A stretch of 64,000 nt of DNA, taken from positions 1 through 64,000 of the forward strand of contig CACNND010000003.1 of assembly GCA_902621725.1 (NCBI GenBank), read 5' to 3'. The notes beneath the pieces were generated by a model that was given only the letters and a program-made list of their open reading frames with translations, made no database searches and was not told where the DNA came from. Below, one piece after another: positions 2,769 through 28,551 of the stretch (position 1 is its first letter; each line of letters starts with the position of its first letter). The translations under genes were made by a program, and so were the position numbers. Origin of the DNA: an uncultured Alphaproteobacteria bacterium (GTDB lineage: Bacteria > Pseudomonadota > Alphaproteobacteria > HIMB59 > GCA-002718135).

Positions 2769-3563
2769 TTATAGATCCCAACTTTTTGGTAGTTTATCAT
2801 TTATTACATTTTTCATAATAATATTTAGTGTTTTTTTTAGATCATAATTATCATCTGCTAAGCATCTAATGATAATTTTATCATCAAATTTTGTCATTTC
2901 ACAATAGTGATTTGCTAAGTTTTTTTTAACTTGTCTTAATACAGACTCTAATTGATGAACAATATCACCAAAAATTAAAATTGTTGATAAAGATGATTGA
3001 TTAGAAAAAGTGTAATTGTTGTTGAAATTATTAATCGTTGATCCTTTAATATTAATTGCTTCAAAATGCTTTATGGAAGAATTTGAATAAATTTTCCATT
3101 GATCAGAAAAAGAAATATTTTTAATTTTTTCAGACATAGCTTTTCTTCCAAAAATTGTTGTTTCACAAAAAATCAAATTAGAATTATCTGATAGATTAAT
3201 ATTGATATTTCTTCTTAATTTTGAATTATCAAATAAAATTAATTCTTTTGGTAACCAATACATAGTAGAATTATTTAAATTAATATTTATTTCTACTCTA
3301 GCTGGGTCTCCAATTCCTGCATAAATTTTTTCTGCAGCTTGAGTACAAACACTCAATTGAGAATTATTAATAAGAGCATTAATTTCAATATTATCATTAC
3401 AAGTAATGCCTCCAGAAGTATTAATTAAAACTAATTCTTTAAATTCATTATAATTTTTTGGATTTAAGATTTTACAACAACCACTTTGAAAAAATTTTGA
3501 AAAATCATTATCTAATAATTCTATATCTATTTTTCCATTTGATCTTTGGAGTAGTTTGTCCAT
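2769..3563 (-). CDS. ureD: Urease accessory protein UreD
   Basis: Scaffold protein that binds apo-urease and, with UreF and UreG, forms the tunnel delivering nickel to the active site. The 264-aa sequence has the UreD hallmarks NTSGGITCNDN near residues 48-58, CTQAAEKIY and the WLPKELILFDNS segment. It is the first gene of the operon; the roughly 90-bp spacer upstream, after the YczE-like gene, is almost pure A/T and could hold a promoter. A possible -10 (TATACT, minus strand) lies about 13 bp before the ATG, but I see no convincing -35. Divergence outside the motifs is normal for UreD. Confidence 0.93.
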   Translation of the reverse strand: MDKLLQRSNGKIDIELLDNDFSKFFQSGCCKILNPKNYNEFKELVLINTSGGITCNDNIEINALINNSQLSVCTQAAEKIYAGIGDPARVEININLNNSTMYWLPKELILFDNSKLRRNININLSDNSNLIFCETTIFGRKAMSEKIKNISFSDQWKIYSNSSIKHFEAINIKGSTINNFNNNYTFSNQSSLSTILIFGDIVHQLESVLRQVKKNLANHYCEMTKFDDKIIIRCLADDNYDLKKTLNIIMKNVINDKLPKSWDL

Positions 3564-3656
3564 TATTGTTTAATTAAGTATAATCGAAAGAAAATTTAAG
3601 AAAATAAAATACTTAATAGTTTAAGATTAAAAATTATTAATAAATAATAGTTAAAT

Positions 3657-4328
3657 TTAATTTTTCCTATAAATTTTAACAACGAAAAATAAACCTAAAG
3701 ATACTGAAAAACCTATTCCTATTGCATATATCAATGTCCCTATTCCAACTTTTCCACCTAAAAAAAATCCTATACCCACTGCAGATAGTTCAAGTAATGT
3801 TCTAATAAATGAAATTGAAAAATTAGTTTGTTTATTTAAGCCAGTCATCAATCCATCTCTTGGACCAGGTCCTAAATTTGCAGCTAAATAAAAACCACTT
3901 CCAATACCTATTATGAAAATACCAATTAATACTTGGAAAAATTGAAATAAGAATTCTTTTGGATAAGGAAGATAGATCAATGTAAGATCCAAAATAACAG
4001 AAATTAAAATAGCATTTAATATTGTTCCAATGCCTGGTTTTTGTTTTAGTGGCAACCAAAGTAACAATACCGCAACACTTACAAAAAATGTTGTAATACC
4101 TATTGTGTAACCAGTTTTAAATGCTAATCCCTGATGTAACACAAACCAAGGTGAAACTCCTAAATTTGCAGTAATTAATAATGCTTCACCAATGCCAAAC
4201 AGTATAAGTCCTAAAATTAAATAAAAAATTGTAATTTTTTTAGGCTTTAGATTGTATTCGAAATGAGAGCTCCAGGATAATTTGGGTATTTCTTTAAGTC
4301 TTAATATATGAATAAACGTTTTTACCAT
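3657..4328 (-). CDS. YczE/YitT-type integral membrane protein
   Basis: A 223-aa inner-membrane protein with about five or six hydrophobic helices beginning near residue 33. It carries two related motifs, ANLGVSPW and ANLGPGPRDG, that mark the YczE/YyaS/YitT family. The two half-motifs suggest an internal duplication. Biochemical function of the family is not established. It overlaps the end of the DDAH-like gene by 7 bp and so is probably co-translated with it; ureD follows after about 90 bp on the same strand. A role in export or uptake of a nitrogen compound is only a guess from context. Confidence 0.75.
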   Translation of the reverse strand: MVKTFIHILRLKEIPKLSWSSHFEYNLKPKKITIFYLILGLILFGIGEALLITANLGVSPWFVLHQGLAFKTGYTIGITTFFVSVAVLLLWLPLKQKPGIGTILNAILISVILDLTLIYLPYPKEFLFQFFQVLIGIFIIGIGSGFYLAANLGPGPRDGLMTGLNKQTNFSISFIRTLLELSAVGIGFFLGGKVGIGTLIYAIGIGFSVSLGLFFVVKIYRKN

Positions 4329-8570: not shown

Positions 8571-10058
8571 TCACCAAATATTATTCAATGACTCTCTTAA
8601 TTTTTTATATTTTTGATATTTATTGTTAAGATATTTAGATTGTTTTCTTTGGGGTGTGTAAATATGACCAATATTCTCGTAATCATTTATTAATTTTTTT
8701 AAATCTTTATTATGCAAGTAACTGTCAATTAAGAATGAAATACCTAGAGCACCTAGTTCTGAATTTGTTAAAATTTTAACTTTAATATTTAAAACATTTG
8801 AAATTAATTGAGGTAAAATTTTACTTTTTGATGCACCTCCTGCAAGATAAAGACTGTCTTTAGATTTAATTTTATTCATATAACAATCCTTTATTGATAA
8901 TGCTAATCCTTCATAACAAGCAATCATAATATCAAAATTGTTATGATGTGGTAAAATTCCAAAAATTTCAGCTTTAGAATTAAAATTTACAAATGGCGAT
9001 ATTGATCCTCCATAATTTATATAAGGAAGAAATATCAATGAATTTTCTGGATAATTAAAAGTTAAATATTTTTTTTCAAAATTATTAATTATTTTAATCT
9101 TATCTGAATATTTTTTTGAATTTTTGTAAAAATTATCAATGACCCAATCAATATTAGTTGTTCCTGCGACGTTTATTTTAGTCTCCAGCCATGTATTATT
9201 TAAAGAAGCAAAAAATAACCCTGAACCATCTTTAGAAATTTTTGAATTATTTTTAACTATTATATTATGACATGTAGTTCCGATTATACTTATTTTTTTG
9301 TTATGATTAATTCCTCCAGCACCCAATATAGAAGCTATTACGTCTCCACATCCTATAATAACAGGTGTGCCAACTTTTAAACTTGTTAATTTTGATGAAC
9401 TTTTAGTTACATATCCACCTAATTCATTTGATTTTTTTATATCTGGGAAAAGTTTAAAATATTTTGTGTTTAATTTAAATATTTTGAATATTTTTTTTGA
9501 CAATTTTCTATTTTTTATATCTCCTGGATATACGGAAACTTCTGTTTCATCATTATTTATATTGCCTGTTAATTTAAATCTTAACCAATCTTTACAAGTT
9601 AAAATGTATTTAATTTTTTTTAAATTTTCTTTTTCAAATATAGTCATCCACTTTAAAATAGGTATAGTACAGCCATATTGTGCAATAGAGCCTGTAATTT
9701 TATAAATTTGATCAAATACTTTTTTATCAGTGAAAATTTTTTTACTTCTTGTGTCATTCCACAAAATTGCATTTCTTACTGGTTTATTTTTATTATTAAT
9801 AGACCAAAACCCAACCATATTTCCAGTTATTCCTAAACCAACAATTGATTGTGTCTGAAGTTTAGATTTTTTTATTAAAAGTTTAATGCATTTAGCAGTA
9901 AGTAACCAAAATTTTTCCATTTCAATTTCAGACTTGCCAAATTTGTCAGTTAATACTGGATTTTTTACACTATAAGAATTTATTTGTTTGAAATTAGTAT
10001 TGAAAATAACAGTCTTTATTACTGAAGTTCCAGCATCAATTGCAATATAATATTTCAA
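8571..10058 (-). CDS. FGGY-family carbohydrate kinase
   Basis: ATP-dependent kinase of sugars or polyols (495 aa). The N-terminal FGGY fold opens with YIAIDAGTSVIKTVIF (phosphate-binding loop 1), then GLGITGNMVGFW and NAILWNDTRS, the xylulokinase-like substrate region. The C-terminal domain contains YLAGGASKSKILPQLISNV and ELGALGISFLI. It most resembles xylulokinase-type members but the exact substrate (xylulose, ribulose, erythritol and so on) cannot be settled. Immediately upstream of the binding protein, it likely phosphorylates the imported sugar. The sequence is lysine/asparagine-rich and more drifted than the transporter genes. Confidence 0.85.
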   Translation of the reverse strand: MKYYIAIDAGTSVIKTVIFNTNFKQINSYSVKNPVLTDKFGKSEIEMEKFWLLTAKCIKLLIKKSKLQTQSIVGLGITGNMVGFWSINNKNKPVRNAILWNDTRSKKIFTDKKVFDQIYKITGSIAQYGCTIPILKWMTIFEKENLKKIKYILTCKDWLRFKLTGNINNDETEVSVYPGDIKNRKLSKKIFKIFKLNTKYFKLFPDIKKSNELGGYVTKSSSKLTSLKVGTPVIIGCGDVIASILGAGGINHNKKISIIGTTCHNIIVKNNSKISKDGSGLFFASLNNTWLETKINVAGTTNIDWVIDNFYKNSKKYSDKIKIINNFEKKYLTFNYPENSLIFLPYINYGGSISPFVNFNSKAEIFGILPHHNNFDIMIACYEGLALSIKDCYMNKIKSKDSLYLAGGASKSKILPQLISNVLNIKVKILTNSELGALGISFLIDSYLHNKDLKKLINDYENIGHIYTPQRKQSKYLNNKYQKYKKLRESLNNIW

Positions 10059-10074
10059 AAGTTATCTCTTATAT

Positions 10075-10254
10075 TTACAACCACGAGTAACCAACACAAA
10101 CTAAAGCTATAATTAAAAAAAAATTCATAACTCTTTTTCTATTTCTAATCTGTTGATCATTTAGTTCTTTATTTCTAGAAAGATAATATACGTAACATCC
10201 AATTGCAAAAGCTACAAATCCTCCTAAATAAGCATACCATTGCAAGTCAGTCAT
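10075..10254 (-). CDS. 59-aa two-helix membrane protein (not in ORF track)
   Basis: The minus strand encodes 59 aa from ATG at 10254 to TAA at 10075, just under the ORF-track cutoff. It begins MTDLQWYAYLGGFVAFAIG, has a polar linker SRNKELNDQQIRNRKR, and a second hydrophobic helix NFFLIIALVCVGYSWL. Two helices joined by a charged loop, an ATG, and a 16-bp gap to the FGGY kinase support a real small gene at the head of this operon. I do not recognise the family. It could instead be conserved independently of the sugar operon. Confidence 0.65.
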   Translation of the reverse strand: MTDLQWYAYLGGFVAFAIGCYVYYLSRNKELNDQQIRNRKRVMNFFLIIALVCVGYSWL

Positions 10255-10303
10255 TTATTTATTTTATATATTATTATATAAAATTTTATAATTATTTTTA
10301 AGT

Positions 10304-11332
10304 ATGCCGTATAAAGCTAGCACAAAAAGATATGAAAAATTAACCTACAGAAGATGTGGAAATAGCGGATTGCTTTTACCCCCCATTACGCTTGGTCTTT
10401 GGCATAATTTTGGTGGAAAAAAATCTATGCCTAATGAATCTAAAAAAATGCTTTTTAGAGCATTTGATAGAGGTGTAACTCATTTTGATTTAGCTAATAA
10501 TTATGGCCCTCCTTATGGTTCGGCTGAAACTAATTTTGGTCAATTGATGAAGTCAGATTTAAATAAATATAGAGATGAATTAATTATATCAACTAAAGCT
10601 GGTTACGATATGTGGCCTGGCCCATATGGAGAATGGGGTTCAAAAAAATATTTAACTGCAAGTCTTGATCAAAGTTTGAAAAGGATGAATTTAGAATATG
10701 TTGATATATTTTATTCACATCGTTTTGACCCATTAACTCCTCTAGAAGAAACTGCTGATGCTTTAACTCAATCAATTAGAAGCGGTAAAGCTTTATATGT
10801 TGGTATTTCTTCTTATAGTTCAAAGCAAACAATTAAAATGAATAAACTATTAAAAGAAAGAGGAGTCAGGTGCCTTATTCATCAACCCTCTTATTCAATG
10901 ATCAATAGATGGGTAGAAAAAGATTTATTATCTACATTAAAAAAACTTGAAATAGGATGTATAGCCTTTTCCCCACTTGCTCAGGGTATGCTTTCAGGAA
11001 AATATTTAAAATCTATTCCCAAAATATCTAGAATATCAGATAATTCTTCATTAGATAAAAAAATGATTACAAAAAATTATCTATTGAAGATTAAAGAATT
11101 AACAAAAATTGCCAAAAAAAGAGGTCAGTCATTACCTCAAATGGCTTTATCATGGGTATTAAGACACCCAACGATGACTTCAGCTTTAATTGGTGCAAGA
11201 ACTGTAAAACAACTTGATGAATGTTTGGATAGTCAAAAAAATATGAATTTCTCATCAAAAGAATTAAGACAAATAAATAAGTACGCTAGGGAAGAAAATA
11301 TTAATCTTTGGGCAAAATCAAGTAGTAATTAA
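10304..11332 (+). CDS. yghZ: Aldo/keto reductase, YghZ (L-glyceraldehyde 3-phosphate reductase) type
   Basis: NADPH-dependent aldo/keto reductase of the AKR14/YghZ group (342 aa), whose E. coli member reduces L-glyceraldehyde 3-phosphate and methylglyoxal. The match runs along the whole chain: YRRCGNSGLLLPPITLGLWH, THFDLANNYGPPYGSAE (catalytic Asp and Tyr), IISTKAGYDMWPGPYG (Lys), DIFYSHRFD (His), LIHQPSYSMINRW, and the C-terminal INLWAKSS. It detoxifies reactive aldehydes in the cytoplasm. It is divergently oriented to the 59-aa gene with a 49-bp A/T-rich spacer that must hold both promoters; a TATAAT hexamer lies about 12 bp before its ATG, allowing only a very short leader. Confidence 0.92.
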   Translation: MPYKASTKRYEKLTYRRCGNSGLLLPPITLGLWHNFGGKKSMPNESKKMLFRAFDRGVTHFDLANNYGPPYGSAETNFGQLMKSDLNKYRDELIISTKAGYDMWPGPYGEWGSKKYLTASLDQSLKRMNLEYVDIFYSHRFDPLTPLEETADALTQSIRSGKALYVGISSYSSKQTIKMNKLLKERGVRCLIHQPSYSMINRWVEKDLLSTLKKLEIGCIAFSPLAQGMLSGKYLKSIPKISRISDNSSLDKKMITKNYLLKIKELTKIAKKRGQSLPQMALSWVLRHPTMTSALIGARTVKQLDECLDSQKNMNFSSKELRQINKYAREENINLWAKSSSN

Positions 11333-17668: not shown

Positions 17669-18046
17669 TTATAATAATTTTATAATATCACTGTCACCTT
17701 CAGCAAAATTGTAATTTTTAAATTCATTTTTTGTAACCCAAGCTGAGTCCTCGTGTTCATTTAAATAAATTTCACCACTAGCATGAGAACATATAAAATA
17801 ATGTAGATTAACATTTATTTTGTCATCTTGATAATTTTCTTCACCTAATTTTTTTTTAATATTTATTTCGATATTAAGCTCTTCTTTTATTTCTCTTTTT
17901 AATGCTTTTTCAAAACTTTCATCTTGCTCTACTTTACCTCCAGGAAATTCCCAGCTTAATCCCATGTGTTTATTTCTATTTCTTTGCGCAATAAAAAATC
18001 TATTATCTTTTATAATTATTGCTGCAACAACATTGAATTTATCCAT
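17669..18046 (-). CDS. mutT: NUDIX hydrolase, MutT-like
   Basis: A 125-aa cytoplasmic NUDIX pyrophosphohydrolase, the size of MutT (8-oxo-dGTP diphosphatase). The Nudix box GGKVEQDESFEKALKREIKEEL is intact except that the usual Gly after REUxEE-L is Asn. N-terminal DKFNVVAAIIIKDNRFFIAQRN and the LSWEFPGGKVE segment match MutT. Its ATG shares one base with the photolyase stop, so the two DNA-repair genes are probably co-expressed. Other NUDIX substrates are possible. Confidence 0.85.
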   Translation of the reverse strand: MDKFNVVAAIIIKDNRFFIAQRNRNKHMGLSWEFPGGKVEQDESFEKALKREIKEELNIEINIKKKLGEENYQDDKINVNLHYFICSHASGEIYLNEHEDSAWVTKNEFKNYNFAEGDSDIIKLL

Positions 18047-19524
18047 TAACTAGTATTATCACGAATAAACTGATTTGCTTTTTTTATTATATTATTTTTC
18101 CTCTCTATATTCATTTTATCATAGATATTAACCATCATATTTAAACGTGGATTAGATTGAAAAAATTTTCTATTTTTATTAATAAAACGCCAATACAATC
18201 CATCCATAATATCATTCCAATTTCCTTTTTTAAAATTCATCATTTTCATAAAATAACTTGAACCACAAATATACGGTTTAGTGCTAAATATTCCTCCATC
18301 ACTAAACAATCCCATTCCATAAACATTAGGTGACATTACCCAATCAGAACTATCAACAAACATTTCCATAAACCAGTTATAAACCTCATTAGGTTTAATT
18401 TCACACAAGTTCATAATGTTGCATAAAATCATTAACCTCTCAATATGATGCGTGTATCCATATTTTTGCGCATTTCTAATTGAGTGATCTAAAGGATCTA
18501 ATCCGGTTGTACCATCATACCATTTTTTAGTAAGAGAATTTTTATGCTTAAAGAAATTATTTTTTTCTAATTGTTGATCATAATTTTGATATATCCCCCT
18601 AATGAATTCTCTCCATCCAATAATTTGCCTTATATAACCTTCATAAGAATTAATATTAATTTTATTTTCAACTTTTCTTACTCTATCAATAATTAGTTCT
18701 GGTGTTAATAAACCTAAATTAATCATGGGGCTTAGAACACTGTGAAATAAAAAGTTATTATTGGTATCAACTGCATCTTCGTAATCACCAAATAAATTAA
18801 ATTTTTTAATAATAAAATAATCTAACCATTTAACAGCATCATCATAAGTTGTAGGTAACCAAAAATTATCAACTTGGCCTGGGTGATTTTTAAAAATTGT
18901 GTTTATTTGTTGTTTTAAAACTTTTGTATGCTTTGTTTCTTTTGCAGTAATCATTTCTGGTATTTTAATATCTTTAGGGAGTTTTTTTCTGTTATCTTCA
19001 TCAAAGCTCCATTTACCACCTTTTGGCTTATTATTTTCCATCAAAATATCTATTTTAGCACGGACAATTTTATAAAAATTTGCCATAAAAGGTTTTTTTG
19101 TTTTACTTAAGTAATTTTTAAATTCATCTCTTGAATTTAAAAACATGGGTGATTGTATAAAAGTTAATTTAATCTTATTTTTTTTGCATAAGGTGCTTAT
19201 TTTTTTTTCAAAAAATTTATCTTCAATCTCAAATGAAATCATTTCTTCGAATTTATTTTCTTTTATAAAATTTTCTAATTTTTTTTCATATGATATTTTA
19301 AAATCTTTTTTTAAATCAACATAATTTACTTTAAATTTATTTTTTTTTAATTCATCAGCATAAGATCTCATTGAGGATAGAAAAAGAATGAGTTTTAATT
19401 TATGATGTTTTTGAAAAGTACAAAGATCAAAACTTTCACACATAAAAATAGTTGAGTCTTTATGTTTACTTAGGTATTTTTGAGGGAATAATTGATTTCC
19501 TAGAATTAAAAATAGACTTTTCAC
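18046..19524 (-). CDS. Photolyase-related protein (PhrB/FeS-BCP family) lacking the FeS cysteines
   Basis: A 492-aa cryptochrome/photolyase-related protein of the type repairing (6-4) photoproducts with FAD. Family features: SLFLILGNQLFPQ start, GGKWSFDEDNRKK, GWREFIRGIY, HHIERLMILCNIMNL, then SDWVMSPNVYGMGLFSDGGIFSTKPYICGSSYFMKMMN. In FeS-bearing members the next segment contains three closely spaced cysteines; here it reads NFKKGNWNDIMDGLYWRF with none, so a 4Fe-4S cluster is unlikely. The protein is otherwise full length. Pairs with the NUDIX gene, suggesting a light/oxidative DNA-damage unit. Confidence 0.87.
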   Translation of the reverse strand: MKSLFLILGNQLFPQKYLSKHKDSTIFMCESFDLCTFQKHHKLKLILFLSSMRSYADELKKNKFKVNYVDLKKDFKISYEKKLENFIKENKFEEMISFEIEDKFFEKKISTLCKKNKIKLTFIQSPMFLNSRDEFKNYLSKTKKPFMANFYKIVRAKIDILMENNKPKGGKWSFDEDNRKKLPKDIKIPEMITAKETKHTKVLKQQINTIFKNHPGQVDNFWLPTTYDDAVKWLDYFIIKKFNLFGDYEDAVDTNNNFLFHSVLSPMINLGLLTPELIIDRVRKVENKININSYEGYIRQIIGWREFIRGIYQNYDQQLEKNNFFKHKNSLTKKWYDGTTGLDPLDHSIRNAQKYGYTHHIERLMILCNIMNLCEIKPNEVYNWFMEMFVDSSDWVMSPNVYGMGLFSDGGIFSTKPYICGSSYFMKMMNFKKGNWNDIMDGLYWRFINKNRKFFQSNPRLNMMVNIYDKMNIERKNNIIKKANQFIRDNTS

Positions 19525-21311: not shown

Positions 21312-22283
21312 GTGAAAAATATTGCAATAATTGGAGCTGGGATGACCGGCTTGTCTCTTGCTTATAATCTTCAAGAACATAATATTACTATTTTTGATAA
21401 ATCATGGAGACCAGGCGGAAGAGTTTCTACTAGAAAGCATGATAATTATCTTTTTGATCATGGTGCACATTATCTATCAACAAATCATTCTGTAAATCAA
21501 TTAAATGAAGTAATAAGTAAATATAACTCAGGTCAAATAATAGAAATAGATTTTGCAACAGATTATTTAAAAAATAAAAAAACTAGAAAAAAAATTATTA
21601 TTGGTCAAAGTGGAATAAATTCTATTCCAAAGTCTATTTTTGATAATATTAAAATAAATAGTTATTTAAATTCAAAGATAGTTAAAATTTCAAAAAATAG
21701 TAATGATCTCTTCTCACTATTTTCTGAAAAGGAAGAATTTAAAGATTTTGATTATGTGTTAATTTGTATACCTTATTTACAATCGAAAGAACTTTCAAAA
21801 GATTTGATTGATTTTAGTCAGATTATTAGCGAGCCATCTTATGATCCAATACATACTGTAATGTTAAGCTATAAAGATAATAACAATATTGATATTAAAG
21901 CTGGATTAAATCTTCATAAAGATATTAGTTTCTTTATGAATCAAAATATTAAATTTAATGAACTATCTCATGATTGTTGGGTATTAAATATGAGCTCTGA
22001 ATATACAAATAATAATATTGATATAGATAAGACTGAATTAGAAAAATATGCTCAATCAATATTTGAAGAAACATTTGATATAAAGAATGAAATAAGTTTT
22101 ATTAAATCACACAGGTGGTTATATGCGCAAACAAAATTGAGTTATAATACTATCTCAAAAAAAAATTGGATTAATTCAAAAGATAAAAAAATATTTTTAA
22201 GTGGAGACTGGGTTATAGGAAAAAGTCTAAGTGATGCCTGGGATGCAGGCGAAAAATTATCTCATTATATTAAGATTTTATGA
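21312..22283 (+). CDS. FAD-dependent amine-oxidase-like (renalase-like) flavoprotein
   Basis: A 323-aa flavoprotein. The Rossmann fingerprint IAIIGAGMTGLSLAYNL opens the chain, followed by IFDKSWRPGGRVSTRKH and YLFDHGAHYL, which are the NAD(P)/FAD amine-oxidase/renalase-type signature. The C-terminus contains IFLSGDWVIGKSLSDAWDAGE, the second FAD-contact region. It starts with GTG. Likely a cytoplasmic oxidase or dehydrogenase of unknown substrate; it is not long enough for a carotenoid desaturase. Confidence 0.82.
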   Translation: MKNIAIIGAGMTGLSLAYNLQEHNITIFDKSWRPGGRVSTRKHDNYLFDHGAHYLSTNHSVNQLNEVISKYNSGQIIEIDFATDYLKNKKTRKKIIIGQSGINSIPKSIFDNIKINSYLNSKIVKISKNSNDLFSLFSEKEEFKDFDYVLICIPYLQSKELSKDLIDFSQIISEPSYDPIHTVMLSYKDNNNIDIKAGLNLHKDISFFMNQNIKFNELSHDCWVLNMSSEYTNNNIDIDKTELEKYAQSIFEETFDIKNEISFIKSHRWLYAQTKLSYNTISKKNWINSKDKKIFLSGDWVIGKSLSDAWDAGEKLSHYIKIL

Positions 22284-22338: not shown

Positions 22339-23043
22339 GTGATTAAATTATTTTACTATTTTTTACCTTTTATTGCACTTTTCCTGCCTAGTTTATGGGT
22401 AAATTATGTTTTAAAAAAATATAATAAGATATTATCTGATATGCCCTTCACTGGTAGAGAACTAGGAAAAAAAATACTTGAAGAAGAAGGAATTAATAAT
22501 GTTTCAATAAATCCTATCAAACAAATAGATCATTATAATCCCAAAGAAAAAAAAATACATATCGCCACTGACAAACTTGATAAGAAAAGTATTACAAGTA
22601 TTGCAGTTGTTGCTCATGAAATTGGACATGCAATTCAAGATAAAGAGAAATATAAACCACTACTCCTCAGACAATCATTAATTGAAAGAACAATGATTTT
22701 CCAAAGAATTGGGTCATTTCTATTAATTATAGGATTACCATCAATTTTTGCTTTTACAAAAAGTCCTTTTATAACATTTATTGCTGCAATAATAATAATG
22801 GGATGTTTATCTACAAATGTATTGATCCATTTAATTACGCTTCCCGTAGAATTTGATGCAAGTTTTAAAAGAGCTTTACCTATACTTAAAAGATATGTTC
22901 CTAAAGAGAATATGTACCAGTGTAAATCTGTTTTAAAAGCTGCTGCATTGACATATTTAGCTCAATCCATTGTAAGTATATTTAGATTAAAAATAATACT
23001 GTTATCTTTTATTAATATTTTCAAATCAATTATAAGAAGATAA
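22339..23043 (+). CDS. Membrane zinc metallopeptidase, YugP-like
   Basis: A 234-aa integral membrane peptidase of the neutral zinc metallopeptidase (Zn_peptidase_2) family. N-terminal helix, then DHYNPKEKKIHIA, the zinc-binding VAHEIGHAIQDKE (HExxH), two helices around residues 125-170, and PVEFDASFKRALPIL, where a third ligand is expected. It starts with GTG. Substrates of the family are not defined. It is followed after about 50 bp by the multi-domain fusion gene. Confidence 0.87.
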   Translation: MIKLFYYFLPFIALFLPSLWVNYVLKKYNKILSDMPFTGRELGKKILEEEGINNVSINPIKQIDHYNPKEKKIHIATDKLDKKSITSIAVVAHEIGHAIQDKEKYKPLLLRQSLIERTMIFQRIGSFLLIIGLPSIFAFTKSPFITFIAAIIIMGCLSTNVLIHLITLPVEFDASFKRALPILKRYVPKENMYQCKSVLKAAALTYLAQSIVSIFRLKIILLSFINIFKSIIRR

Positions 23044-23091: not shown

Positions 23092-25704
23092 ATGAATTTA
23101 AGTGAAAAAATATCTTTAATACTAGTAGATAAAGGTTTTTCTTTATCTCCAAAAAAAAATACTGAAGAATTAATCAATTCTGGTGCAGAATTACATAAAA
23201 ATAATGAAGATATCAAAATTGCTGAACAGCATGGTATTGCAGATCAAATTTTTATTCTTTTGAAAGGTGAAGCAGAATTCGTAAAGTATCATAATAATGT
23301 TTTTTATAATCTAGCAACACTAAAAAATTCTGGATCACCTCTTGGCATTTCAGGCTTAAATGCACCAGGTAGATATATGTCAGATATATTTATTAAAGGT
23401 AATTCAGAGTATATCTCTTTTAAAGTAGAAAAATTAAAAGAATTAGAAGAAATAGATCCTGACTATGCAAGTTTTTTTTATTCTTATTTATTATTTGAAT
23501 CTATTAATTTAATTTGGTCATCACGCAATTTGGAAAAACCCATTCAACAAAAAAATATTAATTTAGCAGATGGTGTTGAAACTGGTGGAGATATTGTAAA
23601 TACAAAAAGAATTAAAAATTCTGCATTTTTAGCTTTTCTTGATGATAACGATTTAGATGAATTAATAAACTATGCAAATGTTAGGCTATTTTCTGCGGGT
23701 GAATATATAACGCTAGAAGGCACAAAATCAGATGGAATAAATATTTTGTTAAAAGGTAAAGTTGAAGCTTCTTTTACAAATTTAAAAGATGATCAGATAG
23801 AAAATAACTCAAGATCAATAGCTAGACCAGGAGTAGCGTTATCCTTATCTGCAGGTTTGCATGATATTGAGTCGCCTTATTCATTGAAATCAACAAGAGA
23901 TACAACAATTTTAAAATTTTCAAATGAGTTTATTGATAATTTAATCAAAACTAATTCAGAATTAGCAATCAAATTTTTTAAAAGACAATTATGGCAATTA
24001 GGTCGCTATATTCAAAGCTCAACAGGTTTAACAACGTATCCAGCTAAAAATGAAAAAGAGTTTTTTCAATATTTATTAGATGATAATTCTGCAACAATAC
24101 CTAGTAATTCAAAACTTTATACAATACCTCATTTATTAGAAAATCATTTAACTCATTCTTTGGCATTCGATACAATTTATGATTTAATAATTACAGGTAA
24201 CGATGATGAAAAATCTATAGCTAGTTTAATGATTGATACATTGAGTGGTATAGAGAGAAAAAATAGATTTTTTAAACAGCTTAATAAAATATATAACAGA
24301 GTAGCAACTTCGTATGATTCAATAAATAAACAAGCTTTACAAAAATTAACAAATTCAGATTTTATAAAAGCATTTGATCAAGTACCTTATGTTATTAAAG
24401 GTATGGAGAATTTACCTGACGAGCCTACAAACATATTTTTTTATAATCATTTGGCAAGTATTGAAGAAAATGGTTTAGCTAATGGACATCAATTTAGTAT
24501 AGATAGTCATTTTATTAGTGCAAAAATTTTATTTCCAAAATATGGTGATGGTGGTCAAAGAATAGCTCGATATTCTAGAAATGCAGAATTTTGGAGATAT
24601 AATTATTATGAGAATTTAGATTATATTTTCGTTCATACACCAGAATCAGACTATTTAAATGAAACTAAAGAACAAAAAAAGAAGAGAAAAAATAAATTAT
24701 TTATCGAAACTCAAAATATTTTTGACCAAAACAGACCTTTAGTTATTGCGCCAGAGGGGACATCTGAAACTGAAGATAATTTAACTCCAAATTCTCCAGG
24801 TCCATTAAAACCAGGAGCATTTTTATTAGCAGACCAATTAAAACCCGAACCACTTCTTGTTCCAATAGCGTTAGCAAATTTTGATTATTCAATTTCTGAT
24901 ACTATTTATTCTGCAGTTATTAAAGAACCAATCAAAATAAAAGATTTTGTAAATGATATGAAAAATAAAAAAGAGTTAGAAATTTTCCTATCTAAATATA
25001 GAAAAACATTTAGATCTTATGTTGAAGAAGCAATTGAATTAGCTAAATCAGCATCAAAAAATAAAATTAATAATGAAGATGTAGTAAGTAACTTAAATTT
25101 AGTTAGCCCTATTGAAGAAGAATTTGAAGCAGACGTGAGAGAATTAGAAAATAAATTACATTCAGATCAATATATAAATAACAAAATAGTCTTATTTGGA
25201 AGCTCAACTTTTAAAGATTGGGAAAATGCAAAAACTGATTTGTCATTTGATAGTTTATTAAATTTAGGATTTGGGGGCTCCACATTAGTATCATGCCGTA
25301 CATATTTTAACAGAATAGTAGTCCCTAATAACCCTGATAAGATGATTTTCTATGCTGGAGATAATGATATAGGTAGCGGAATGAGTGCTGAAGATTTAGA
25401 AAATGAATTTTTATTATTTGCTTCTGAGGTTAATGAAAAATTACCGCATACATTATGTTTTTTTGTATCCATTAAACCAAGTGTATTCAGGAATAATTAT
25501 TTAAATACAATTCTTGATGCAAATGAACGGATTAAAAACAAAATTGAAAATTTTAGTCAATGGCGTTATATTGATCTTTGTTCTCCTATGCTTGATGCTG
25601 GGTTTGAAAAATTTTATTCAGAAGATCCTCTACACATGAATGTACTTGGTTACAGTCTCTTAAGTAAGTTAATAAGAGATGAAATATCAAAATTTATAAT
25701 TTAA
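23092..25704 (+). CDS. Four-domain fusion: two cNMP-binding-like domains, PlsC-like acyltransferase, SGNH hydrolase
   Basis: An 870-aa soluble protein. Residues about 20-120 and 175-300 each resemble a cyclic-nucleotide-binding (CAP-like) beta-roll; the second reads LFSAGEYITLEGTKSDGINILLKGKVEASF. Residues about 445-620 resemble a PlsC/LPLAT acyltransferase: FYNHLASIEEN (H453-x4-E458, Glu in place of the usual Asp) and VIAPEGTSET (PEGT at 554-557). Residues about 695-870 form an SGNH hydrolase: VLFGSSTF (Ser 705), NLGFGGSTL, YAGDNDIG (GxND) and DPLHMNVLGY (D845, H848). No helix DNA-binding domain is seen. Probably a ligand-gated lipid acyltransferase/esterase; no signal peptide. Each domain is recognised by motif; the combination is unusual. 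Confidence 0.8.
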   Translation: MNLSEKISLILVDKGFSLSPKKNTEELINSGAELHKNNEDIKIAEQHGIADQIFILLKGEAEFVKYHNNVFYNLATLKNSGSPLGISGLNAPGRYMSDIFIKGNSEYISFKVEKLKELEEIDPDYASFFYSYLLFESINLIWSSRNLEKPIQQKNINLADGVETGGDIVNTKRIKNSAFLAFLDDNDLDELINYANVRLFSAGEYITLEGTKSDGINILLKGKVEASFTNLKDDQIENNSRSIARPGVALSLSAGLHDIESPYSLKSTRDTTILKFSNEFIDNLIKTNSELAIKFFKRQLWQLGRYIQSSTGLTTYPAKNEKEFFQYLLDDNSATIPSNSKLYTIPHLLENHLTHSLAFDTIYDLIITGNDDEKSIASLMIDTLSGIERKNRFFKQLNKIYNRVATSYDSINKQALQKLTNSDFIKAFDQVPYVIKGMENLPDEPTNIFFYNHLASIEENGLANGHQFSIDSHFISAKILFPKYGDGGQRIARYSRNAEFWRYNYYENLDYIFVHTPESDYLNETKEQKKKRKNKLFIETQNIFDQNRPLVIAPEGTSETEDNLTPNSPGPLKPGAFLLADQLKPEPLLVPIALANFDYSISDTIYSAVIKEPIKIKDFVNDMKNKKELEIFLSKYRKTFRSYVEEAIELAKSASKNKINNEDVVSNLNLVSPIEEEFEADVRELENKLHSDQYINNKIVLFGSSTFKDWENAKTDLSFDSLLNLGFGGSTLVSCRTYFNRIVVPNNPDKMIFYAGDNDIGSGMSAEDLENEFLLFASEVNEKLPHTLCFFVSIKPSVFRNNYLNTILDANERIKNKIENFSQWRYIDLCSPMLDAGFEKFYSEDPLHMNVLGYSLLSKLIRDEISKFII

Positions 25705-25716
25705 ACTTTAAATAAA

Positions 25717-26739
25717 TTAAATTTTAATTTCTTTTCTTAGCTTATCAGATTTATAGGAATTGAAGACTAATGATAAACTCTTTATATTATCATCGCCACT
25801 GGTGTCGTGTTCAATCTTTTTTATTAGTGAATCAATAAAATGTTTATGTGTATTGATTACACTTTCTTGAATTTGATCCCAAGGCTTTGAAATCCACTTA
25901 TATTTATTTGGTTTTCCATAATAAATCTTCTTTTTATTATTTTTATATAAAGTAATTTTGTAATTATAATCCAAATCTATTGAGCCATTAGAGAATTCTA
26001 AATTAACAAGTGTTTGAGCAAATCTATCAGGTTTTTTTATTGAAGAAATAGATGCATCAACGATTGTAATACTATTATTTTTATTTCTTATAAGTGATAT
26101 AAAATCTGTTTCACCTTTAAATTTTTTATTTGTATTTTGATTTACAGTATAAATACTTTTAGCTTCTCCCATAAAAAATCTACTTAAATCAAATAAATGA
26201 ATCCCTACGTCTAAAGTTAAATACTCTTTTAAATCGTATAAATATTTTTGATTTGTATATCCAACAGGATTTGCATGTCTAAAAGATATCTTAGCATAAT
26301 GTGGTTTAGTTAAATTCTCTTTATTTATAATTTGTTTTAATTTTAATAAAGGGCTTTGCCATCTAAAATTCTCATGAACCATAAGTGGTGTTTTGCTTTT
26401 TTTATATAAAGAAACAATTTTTTTTGCATTTGATAAATTTTCAGCAAATGGCTTTTGTATAGAAGTTGGAATTTTATACTTAGATAAAATTTTACCAATA
26501 TTTAAATGTGTTTCCATTGTTGTTACAACATCAACAAAGTCAATTTTATGATTTTTTAACATTAATTCTATTGATGAATAAGAATGCATAATTTTAAATT
26601 TAGATTTAAATTTATTAGCTTTTTTTATATTCAAATCGCAAACACATATTATTTGAATATTTTTTAATTCTTTCCAAGCTAAAATATGATTTTCAGCAAA
26701 AAAACCGCAACCGATTAATGCGCCTTTTAATTTTTTCAT
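25717..26739 (-). CDS. Gfo/Idh/MocA oxidoreductase, D-apiose dehydrogenase (ApsD)-like
   Basis: A 340-aa NAD(P)-dependent sugar dehydrogenase. N-terminal Rossmann KGALIGCGFFAENHILAW, the family catalytic lysine in SIQKPFAENL, then PLMVHENFRWQSP and TLDVGIHLFDLSRFF with the catalytic histidine, and KPWDQIQESVINTHKHFIDSL near the end. These phrases recall D-apiose dehydrogenases, which oxidise D-apiose to its lactone. The next gene upstream on the same strand is an ApnL-like lactonase, which would open that lactone, strengthening the call; the two overlap by 4 bp. Related sugar dehydrogenases cannot be excluded. Confidence 0.72.
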   Translation of the reverse strand: MKKLKGALIGCGFFAENHILAWKELKNIQIICVCDLNIKKANKFKSKFKIMHSYSSIELMLKNHKIDFVDVVTTMETHLNIGKILSKYKIPTSIQKPFAENLSNAKKIVSLYKKSKTPLMVHENFRWQSPLLKLKQIINKENLTKPHYAKISFRHANPVGYTNQKYLYDLKEYLTLDVGIHLFDLSRFFMGEAKSIYTVNQNTNKKFKGETDFISLIRNKNNSITIVDASISSIKKPDRFAQTLVNLEFSNGSIDLDYNYKITLYKNNKKKIYYGKPNKYKWISKPWDQIQESVINTHKHFIDSLIKKIEHDTSGDDNIKSLSLVFNSYKSDKLRKEIKI

Positions 26740-28551
26740 TTATCTTCTATAAATTTTATTTCTAATTGTTCAAACGTATATGGATTTATATCTTTTTTAA
26801 AATTAAAAAAAGAAAAATCATTCTTAAAAATATCAGTAAAATTTTTTAAATTAAGCTTATATTGATAGCTAAAATTTAATTCAGAAATATTAATTTCTTT
26901 CTTTTGTTTTGAAGAATTTACAAATAAATAATACTTTTTATTTTTTAATATAACTTTTAAACCATATACTTCATTAATTGGATTAAATTTATAAATTTCT
27001 GAATTTGATAATGAAATAAGAAAATTATTTAAATGATACAATGGTCTTTTGGTATTATCTTTATTTAATATTCCGTGATGCCCATAAATGGAATTAAAAG
27101 TAAAAAATTTTGACTCTTTATTTATTGATTGAATAAAAATTGCCAGTGTCCAAGTTAGTGAAAATAATTGATCATGTCTTGGATCGCTATCAGCCATTTC
27201 TAATCTTATCTTCTTTTTATTCTTTACAAGACTTTCACCATAAGGATTGAAATACATTCCAATAGAAATTGGGCCAATATGGACATCCGAACTATTAGAA
27301 AAATTTTTTAGAGTTTTTAGGATATAAGGTATAGTTTCGGGTGTATTTAACACACCATAATCACTAGAATCATGAATAATTGGAGTGAAGGAAAAACTAA
27401 CTAAATCATAAAACATTTTTGGCCTCTTTCTATTTAATTCTGTAAAATTAGTGACCATTCCTGAAACAATTTGACTATTAGAAAACATCTTTTTCGCAAT
27501 TTTATAGTATTCATTTAATTCTGGAACTTTAGGCCATTCACCAGCTGGTTGAAAACTATTCAAATATATTTTTGGACAAATTAAAATTTTATCTAAATTA
27601 ATATTATTTTCAGTTATAAAATTATAAATTTTAGTTAATTCTTTTTCAGGATCATTAATATGATCAACCAATGCTACAAGAAACACCTTGTTTTGATATC
27701 TTGTAGTTACACTTTTATAATCTTTAGTAAAATCAATAAGATAGTAATAATAATCAAAGTTACTTATTAAATTATCATCAGGAAGAATTAAAGAATCAAT
27801 TTTTATGCCAATTTTAGGAAATTTATAAGAAGTAGTATGATCAATTTTTACAATATTCTTAGAGGGAAATGATCTTTGTTTTTTATTTACTATATCTATT
27901 TTTACAGCTTGAGAAAAATTAGACCCTTCTTTTTCTAAGTATGGAAAAGGATCTAATAAAGAGCCGCTATATATTTTGAAAGAAGCATCTCCCCAGTTTC
28001 TTTGATCCTCCATTTCAAATATAATACCTTTAAAATTTATATTAACTAGCAAGCTATCGTCTAAGGTGTAAGCTAACTTTTTAAATTTAAAAAATGGTTG
28101 ATCAGGCGTTAAAAATTCAGGAAATTTTTTTTCCTCTTTTGCCCCCGTCTTCTTTTGTTGCAATAATATTTGAACCAACATGACTTTGTAATGGAATTAA
28201 TAAATTAAAACCTATTCTATTGGTCCAAAAATCAGTTAAGAATTTTCCTTTAGAAGATAGAGTTATAGAATTTTCAGAAAATAATATAGTATTTTTTGTT
28301 TTAAGAATTTCAGTATTTCCATATTCTAAATCAAATATATATTCTAGAGATGAATCAAAGTTTTCTTCATAATTTAGAATTTTAGGATCATAATTATTCC
28401 AATTTTTGTCTCTTACCAAGAATGATATCATTTTTAAAATTTGTAGATTTTGAAAAGTTATATTTCGAAAAAAAAGATTATCTTTAAATATAGTAAAATT
28501 ATTATTTGATTTTTTAATAAACTTTTCTTCCAATAATTTAGAGTTATACAT
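26736..28551 (-). pseudogene. Frameshifted D-apionate lactonase (ApnL)-like gene
   Basis: Two ORFs, 28117-28551 (144 aa) and 26736-28181 (481 aa), together make one protein of about 600 aa. The first supplies the N-terminus up to LIPLQSHVGSNIIATKEDGG; the second continues KKFPEFLTPDQPFFKFKK, then FEMEDQRNWGDASFKIYSG, a hallmark of ApnL-type lactonases with a TIM-barrel domain (LDKILICPKIYLNSFQPAGEWP). Losing one base restores the frame; the shift lies at GGGGG or the nearby A8 run around 28128-28146. It may be a true pseudogene, a sequencing/assembly slip, or rescued by slippage. The rest of the frame is intact with no other stop, favouring a recent or artefactual event. Confidence 0.75.

Follow-up and report, generated by a model that had tools for sequence, protein, structure and literature searches.

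The question raised by this locus is what a single protein might do that joins two cyclic-nucleotide-binding (CNB)-like domains to one module that adds acyl groups and another that removes them. The gene lies in a window of 64,000 nucleotides, the whole stretch of DNA analysed here, from an uncultured alphaproteobacterium. A sequence-only reading had named four domains and their order, and both were borne out by Pfam matches of homologues, a CNB1 profile, AlphaFold2 (AF2) and hhalign. The 870-aa protein comprises, in this order, CNB1, CNB2, a helical domain, a PlsC-like (LPLAT) acyltransferase and an SGNH hydrolase:

23092..25704, + strand: whole fusion gene, 870 aa, ATG at 23092, stop at 25702-25704
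23155..23526, + strand: CNB domain 1 (beta-roll sensor), residues ~22-145; 12-domain profile, AF2, Pfam matches of homologues
23602..24024, + strand: CNB domain 2, residues ~171-311; Pfam cNMP_binding at 198-288, E 1.5e-7
24025..24375, + strand: all-helical domain between CNB2 and acyltransferase, residues ~312-428; AF2 secondary structure
24379..25065, + strand: PlsC-like LPLAT acyltransferase domain, residues ~430-658; sub-threshold Pfam match, homologues, hhalign
25105..25698, + strand: SGNH hydrolase domain, residues ~672-869; Pfam, homologues, AF2, structure matches

Each part comes from a known family, and the architecture is real, conserved and uncharacterised. In the window protein, the cNMP_binding match in CNB2 exceeded the Pfam cut-off, Lipase_GDSL_2 (719-855, E 2.4e-7) stayed just below it with 31.9 versus 32.9 bits, Acyltransferase (507-593, E 0.0024) reached 18.1 versus a cut-off of 23, and CNB1 was not detected by Pfam. 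Among the homologues, two cNMP stretches were recognised by Pfam at loci L077, L129, L130, L132, L133 and L134, the GDSL cut-off was passed by L129-L132, and the cut-off for PlsC-type acyltransferases by L077, L102, L133 and L134; several other relatives fell below the latter, as did the window protein. A CNB1 profile built from 12 homologous domains matched the PDB entry 3mdp (1.4e-12) and EPAC2 (6.6e-13). The AF2 model, calculated from a 25-sequence alignment, had a mean pLDDT of 82 and a pTM of 0.64, and its secondary structure ran from two beta-rolls through the helical domain to an alpha/beta acyltransferase-like and an alpha/beta SGNH-like part. When the full model was submitted to Foldseek, the best matches were tandem-CNB proteins, e.g. 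PKA-R and PKG. By fold and profile both N-terminal domains belong to the CNB/cNMP-binding superfamily (PF00027), and the earlier assignment of these domains to cNMP folds thus withstood structure prediction. Since the top 50 Foldseek matches were CNB matches only, the assignment of the acyltransferase and SGNH folds relies on sequence profiles together with secondary structure; an AF2 model of the acyltransferase module alone from a single sequence was uninformative (pLDDT 35). The helical domain carries no Pfam name, but S340, F359, G369 and E373 are invariant and its dN/dS is 0.03-0.05.

The acyltransferase module was compared by hhalign with PlsC-type proteins of the same genome set (96.1% probability, E 3.2e-9). 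Motifs I, III and IV aligned, with H453 on the catalytic His of PlsC, E458 on its Asp and PEG on PEG:

24445..24468, + strand: acyltransferase motif I, N452-H453-LASI-E458-E459, from the alignment to PlsC
24751..24765, + strand: acyltransferase motif III, P554-E555-G556-T557-S558, PEG invariant

Homology over the domain places the module among the PlsC-like LPLAT proteins (PF01553). In an alignment of 100 rows, dominated by two close clades so that all counts overstate conservation, N452, L454 and PEG are invariant (PEG 100/100), T follows PEG in 86, and the His of motif I is present in 96. The remaining four rows have Ser and represent genus g118, in which PEG and the SGNH domain remain intact. 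Across the family motif III reads PEG[TQEKNM][SDT] instead of PEGTR. The acid of H-x4-[DE] is E or D in 88 rows and otherwise P, A, G, M or T; with so variable a position and a His that is Ser in g118, H-x4-E does not qualify as a conserved variant of the H-x4-D motif. In lineages lacking the SGNH domain, the acyltransferase scored 34.4-39.1 bits against the cut-off of 23 and is the sole catalytic module of the chain. Ordinary PlsC-type acyltransferases were also found in each genome tested, to which the acyltransferase of the fusion is an addition.

The catalytic blocks of the C-terminal module were found in all SGNH-bearing rows of the alignment (96/96 for each block below), and the Gly of block II is present in most:

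25198..25206, + strand: SGNH block I, G703-S704-S705, nucleophile S705
25357..25368, + strand: SGNH block III, G756-D757-N758-D759
25624..25635, + strand: SGNH block V, D845-x-x-H848 (DPLH)

With blocks I, II, III and V in place, the module is a predicted SGNH/GDSL esterase or lipase. Stand-alone SGNH homologues occur in other proteobacteria (E 1e-34 to 1e-47), and the closest structures include a protein labelled as sialate O-acetylesterase and a putative PAF hydrolase. All motifs that the sequence-only reading had pointed out were recovered, namely H-x4-E (NH452-453, LASI, E458), PEGT (PEGTS 554-558), GSS (703-705), GxND (GDND 756-759) and DxxH (D845PLH848). Neither catalytic domain is degenerate throughout the homologues, and degeneracy of the acyltransferase is real in one genus (g118).

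The search of related genomes that had been proposed for this architecture revealed a conserved family and not a one-off. Full-length homologues at 25-98% identity are spread across many genomes, and the closest named relatives are uncultured marine Alphaproteobacteria and Pelagibacteraceae AG-337-I02. The fused form is present in five clades: the window's genus, which holds all 56 of the genomes with a match among 162 of its order; two divergent Pelagibacteraceae (SAR11) clades, with full-length copies in 12 of the 197 genomes sampled from the family of genome G902; the alphaproteobacterial genus g118, with full-length copies in three genomes; and genus g385 of another proteobacterial class, the source of all eight matches there, likewise full-length. 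Other lineages hold the modules in different forms. Genomes G449 and G452 encode CNB-CNB-acyltransferase without SGNH, genome G243 encodes CNB and CNB-acyltransferase as two adjoining genes, again without SGNH, and on a megaplasmid of Persicobacter a CNB-CNB-acyltransferase gene (655 aa) is followed after a 1-nt gap by an SGNH gene (209 aa). As Persicobacter belongs to the Bacteroidota, the architecture, there as two genes, spans at least two phyla.

Purifying selection acts on all five modules, with dN/dS of 0.02-0.11 wherever computable and about 0.04-0.11 in pairs from the window's genus; together with the many full-length homologues this rules out a chance open reading frame. Between the window and L013 the acyltransferase is 82% identical versus 60-75% for the other modules, and its dN/dS of about 0.05 led us to reject decay of this domain in the window's lineage. 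A unique fusion or assembly artefact was also rejected, the gene being intact in many independent single-cell genomes, as was a viral origin, for which a profile scan of IMG/VR returned no relative. Spread by plasmids was likewise rejected: among the plasmid matches listed only that of Persicobacter covers most of the protein, the others being confined to the SGNH region. In a FastTree phylogeny the copies of SAR11 clade 1 cluster with the window's genus and not with clade 2, a grouping that hints at lateral transfer.

The sequence-only reading had further held that the acyl-adding and acyl-removing modules belong together, a view strengthened by the two-gene form of Persicobacter and by the neighbours of the SGNH-less relatives. 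Each of the three lineages without SGNH (G243, G449 and G452; loci L102, L133 and L134) has a gene of the AXE1 family, i.e. the acetyl-xylan/cephalosporin-C deacetylase family, within two genes of the acyltransferase; as G449 and G452 belong to one family, this linkage amounts to two independent cases. Acyltransferase and esterase are hence coupled in three forms: fused, as adjoining genes in Persicobacter, and with AXE1 nearby. Cooperation of the two activities is best supported by this pairing, in which an acyl-adding module goes with acyl-removing enzymes that differ in fold. In Persicobacter a gene of the PAP2 phosphatase family is located upstream. At L134 (G449), an FHA-GGDEF protein (9987-11012, - strand) is encoded directly upstream of the SGNH-less gene.

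The gene neighbourhood suggests a link between the marine members of the family and light stress. In the window, the genes upstream of the fusion include:

22339..23043, + strand: Zn_peptidase_2 membrane metallopeptidase, 48 bp before the fusion
21312..22283, + strand: FAD amine-oxidase-like flavoprotein, a conserved neighbour in the window's genus
18046..19524, - strand: photolyase-related protein (DPRP + FAD_binding_7), 3.6 kb upstream of the fusion, divergent

The Zn_peptidase_2 gene is directly upstream of the fusion in those loci of the window's genus that have enough flank. The nearest photolyase-family gene (DPRP) of this genus lies 3.6-4.8 kb upstream, and no photolyase was present within the 6 kb flank of L058 and L082. 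In SAR11 clade 1, a co-directional class-I photolyase gene is found 250-262 bp upstream in 29 of 31 loci (L068-L099; L082 is left out as a locus of the window's genus, and L076 and L077 lack the photolyase). In clade 2, a photolyase-family gene is only 14-22 bp away in all three loci examined (L199-L201), within an island that encodes FolE, an SDR, a DPRP photolyase, a DCC protein, the fusion, a FAD_binding_7 protein, MsrA, TspO, an Fe-SOD, DUF3833 and a CFA-synthase-like protein. The full photo-oxidative-stress gene set is restricted to clade 2, whereas clade 1 and the window's genus have the photolyase only. The DCC1-like thiol-disulfide protein of the island is located at 6713-7057 of L199, where a small uncharacterised protein, a candidate DUF2237-like one, was also seen at 3546-3920. 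Because their fusion proteins are closely related (55-56% identity), the three marine arrangements may represent fewer than three independent cases. No photolyase was found near the fusion in the examined loci of lineages other than the window's genus and the two SAR11 clades, so light stress is a lineage-level association which cannot define the core role of the family. Elsewhere, the RpoE2-ChrR regulon of Shewanella has phrB, cfa and a DPRP photolyase with an SDR among its candidate members (PMC4336711), and in Vibrio cholerae photolyase operons as well as cfa are blue-light-inducible (PMC5241685).

The flanks also showed features of their own. In SAR11 clade 1 (L068-L099), variable tandem arrays of zero to five prepilin-like genes (GFTLIELLVVVAIIGILAAVG) come after the fusion and a DUF4174 gene, and L082, L058 and L057 of the window's genus (72-73% identity) have a different downstream neighbourhood. 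On the - strand of the window, the overlapping open reading frames 26736-28181 and 28117-28551 correspond to a single frame of ~604 aa in L024 (9650-11461), which suggests that the split at 26736-28551 is a frameshift, either an assembly error or a pseudogene.

The reading we tentatively prefer, as possible rather than probable, is that of a ligand-gated enzyme for phospholipid deacylation and reacylation. The protein would be a soluble or peripheral acyl-turnover enzyme on the cytoplasmic side, whose SGNH domain would cleave an acyl ester, most likely that of a (lyso)phospholipid, and whose PlsC-like domain would re-acylate the product with acyl-CoA or acyl-ACP. Deacylation and reacylation in one chain would constitute a Lands-type cycle. 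We infer that the two CNB folds, joined by the conserved helical domain, may act as an allosteric gate, responding to a phosphate-bearing or acidic small molecule that is probably not cAMP or cGMP. The marine alphaproteobacterial versions would probably serve membrane-lipid repair or remodelling under photo-oxidative stress.

The strongest rival, which we regard as somewhat unlikely, leaves the SGNH domain as sole catalytic module under regulation by the CNB domains, with the PlsC-like domain as an acyl- or membrane-binding lipid positioner or sensor. Catalysis by the acyltransferase may indeed be dispensable, because the acid of motif I is variable and His is replaced by Ser in g118 while PEG and SGNH are retained; the altered motif III, the sub-threshold Pfam scores of the window protein and several relatives, and the ordinary PlsC that the genome has anyway fit the same explanation. 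However, the acyltransferase is the most conserved module, His and PEG are kept at the frequencies given above, and a mere lipid anchor would not predict an above-threshold acyltransferase as the only catalytic module of the SGNH-less lineages. A substrate other than a glycerophospholipid seems rather improbable. The enzyme would then transfer and remove acetyl or short acyl groups on a small metabolite, pigment or glycan precursor, again under CNB control. The acetylesterase- and PAF-acetylhydrolase-like structures nearest to the SGNH domain and the deacetylase family of the alternative neighbour AXE1 indicate that the enzyme may remove acetyl or short-chain groups and not long-chain ones, but the clade-2 neighbours include the CFA-synthase-like lipid enzyme, Persicobacter has the PAP2 phosphatase-family gene upstream, and PlsC-like LPLAT domains usually acylate (lyso)phospholipids.

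Two further explanations turn on the sensor domains, and the first of them, an acyl-transfer and acyl-removal enzyme regulated by cAMP or cGMP, we consider very unlikely. The tandem folds resemble those of PKA-R and PKG, and class III cyclases are present in the window's genus. The canonical cassette, FGE[LIV]AL..[PV]R, depends on Glu and Arg (PMC2246266), and judged by it neither cassette is complete:

23338..23376, + strand: non-canonical phosphate-binding cassette of CNB1 (PLGISGLNAPGRY), G85, S87, P92 and R94 invariant, Glu absent

The CNB1 pattern GxSxLxxPxR[YF] retains the Arg but has Ser for the ribose-binding Glu. Among the SGNH-bearing proteins that were inspected, none has the cassette Arg in CNB2. 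The beta2-beta3 Gly is not conserved. The check proposed at the outset, whether the phosphate-binding cassette is kept, thus found the Arg of CNB1 retained but the Glu of CNB1 and the Arg of CNB2 missing. Neither a class III cyclase nor any other CNB protein was matched in the SAR11 genomes G902 and G903, where the fusion is the only detectable CNB-domain protein. In addition, CNB2 weakly matches family-2B encapsulins; according to one report, cyclic nucleotides are not bound by the CNB-like domain of these proteins (PMC12407261). By its cassettes the protein would fall outside the cAMP/cGMP-binding CNB class, and control by a bound cyclic nucleotide, envisaged at the outset as one option beside other small ligands, is unlikely given the missing Glu and Arg and with no class III cyclase or second CNB protein detected in G902 and G903. 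In the window's genus, G220 (contig C3, 174444-175575), G826 and G858 have a separate divergent gene pair, a class III cyclase paired with the CNB protein whose cNMP score was the highest; the window genome, 82% complete, did not show this pair. The last explanation, extremely unlikely in our view, is a Pycsar-like defence effector in which the CNB domains unleash a membrane-attacking phospholipase. A CNB sensor with a lipid hydrolase would fit, and PycTIR (8jsk, 4e-7) is among the proteins whose CNB domain the CNB1 profile recovers, but with a weaker match than eukaryotic CNB domains; no cyclase family is annotated among the adjoining genes, the fusion gene has conserved neighbours like a housekeeping gene, and an acyl-adding domain would be odd in a killer protein.

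The preferred deacylation-reacylation enzyme can be extended to a widespread and hitherto undescribed class of one-chain membrane-lipid repair switches, a doubtful but specific proposal: a non-cyclic-nucleotide ligand on CNB1, e.g. a head-group phosphate or an oxidation product, would gate the removal of damaged acyl chains by the esterase as well as their replacement by the acyltransferase, protecting ocean-surface alphaproteobacteria against photo-oxidation. SAR11-type bacteria count among the commonest cells of the sunlit ocean and have very few regulatory genes. A ligand-gated enzyme that removes and adds acyl chains, if confirmed, would offer a testable handle on how such streamlined cells maintain their membranes under light, and the fused, unfused and esterase-swapped versions are a good case for testing the functional coupling of acyltransferase and esterase.

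In accordance with the sequence-only reading, literature searches for the architecture CNB-CNB-acyltransferase-SGNH found no characterised protein; known systems share parts of it. Aas of E. coli combines an acyltransferase with an acyl-ACP synthetase and functions in lysophospholipid reacylation. The fusion resembles it in the predicted joining of this reaction with a second enzyme in one chain, whereas the second module of Aas activates acyl groups instead of hydrolysing esters and is not accompanied by a CNB sensor. With PlsC and other LPLAT proteins (PF01553) the fusion shares the predicted fold and the aligned motifs I, III and IV, and relatives pass the Pfam cut-off; it differs in the variable acid of motif I, PEGTS for PEGTR, the additional helical and CNB domains and the fused esterase. 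All catalytic blocks of the SGNH enzymes TesA, PAF-acetylhydrolase and acetylesterase (PF13472) are present, here in the C-terminal module of a cytoplasmic-looking fusion and not in a stand-alone protein. NTE and its relatives (PNPLA6-7) likewise place CNB-fold domains ahead of a lipid esterase, but they have a patatin hydrolase and a transmembrane segment and lack an acyltransferase domain; direct binding of cAMP to NTE is unproven (PMC6995513). PKA-R and PKG share the two CNB beta-rolls in tandem, while the cassettes of the fusion are non-canonical and the module they would regulate is a predicted acyl-turnover enzyme instead of a kinase.
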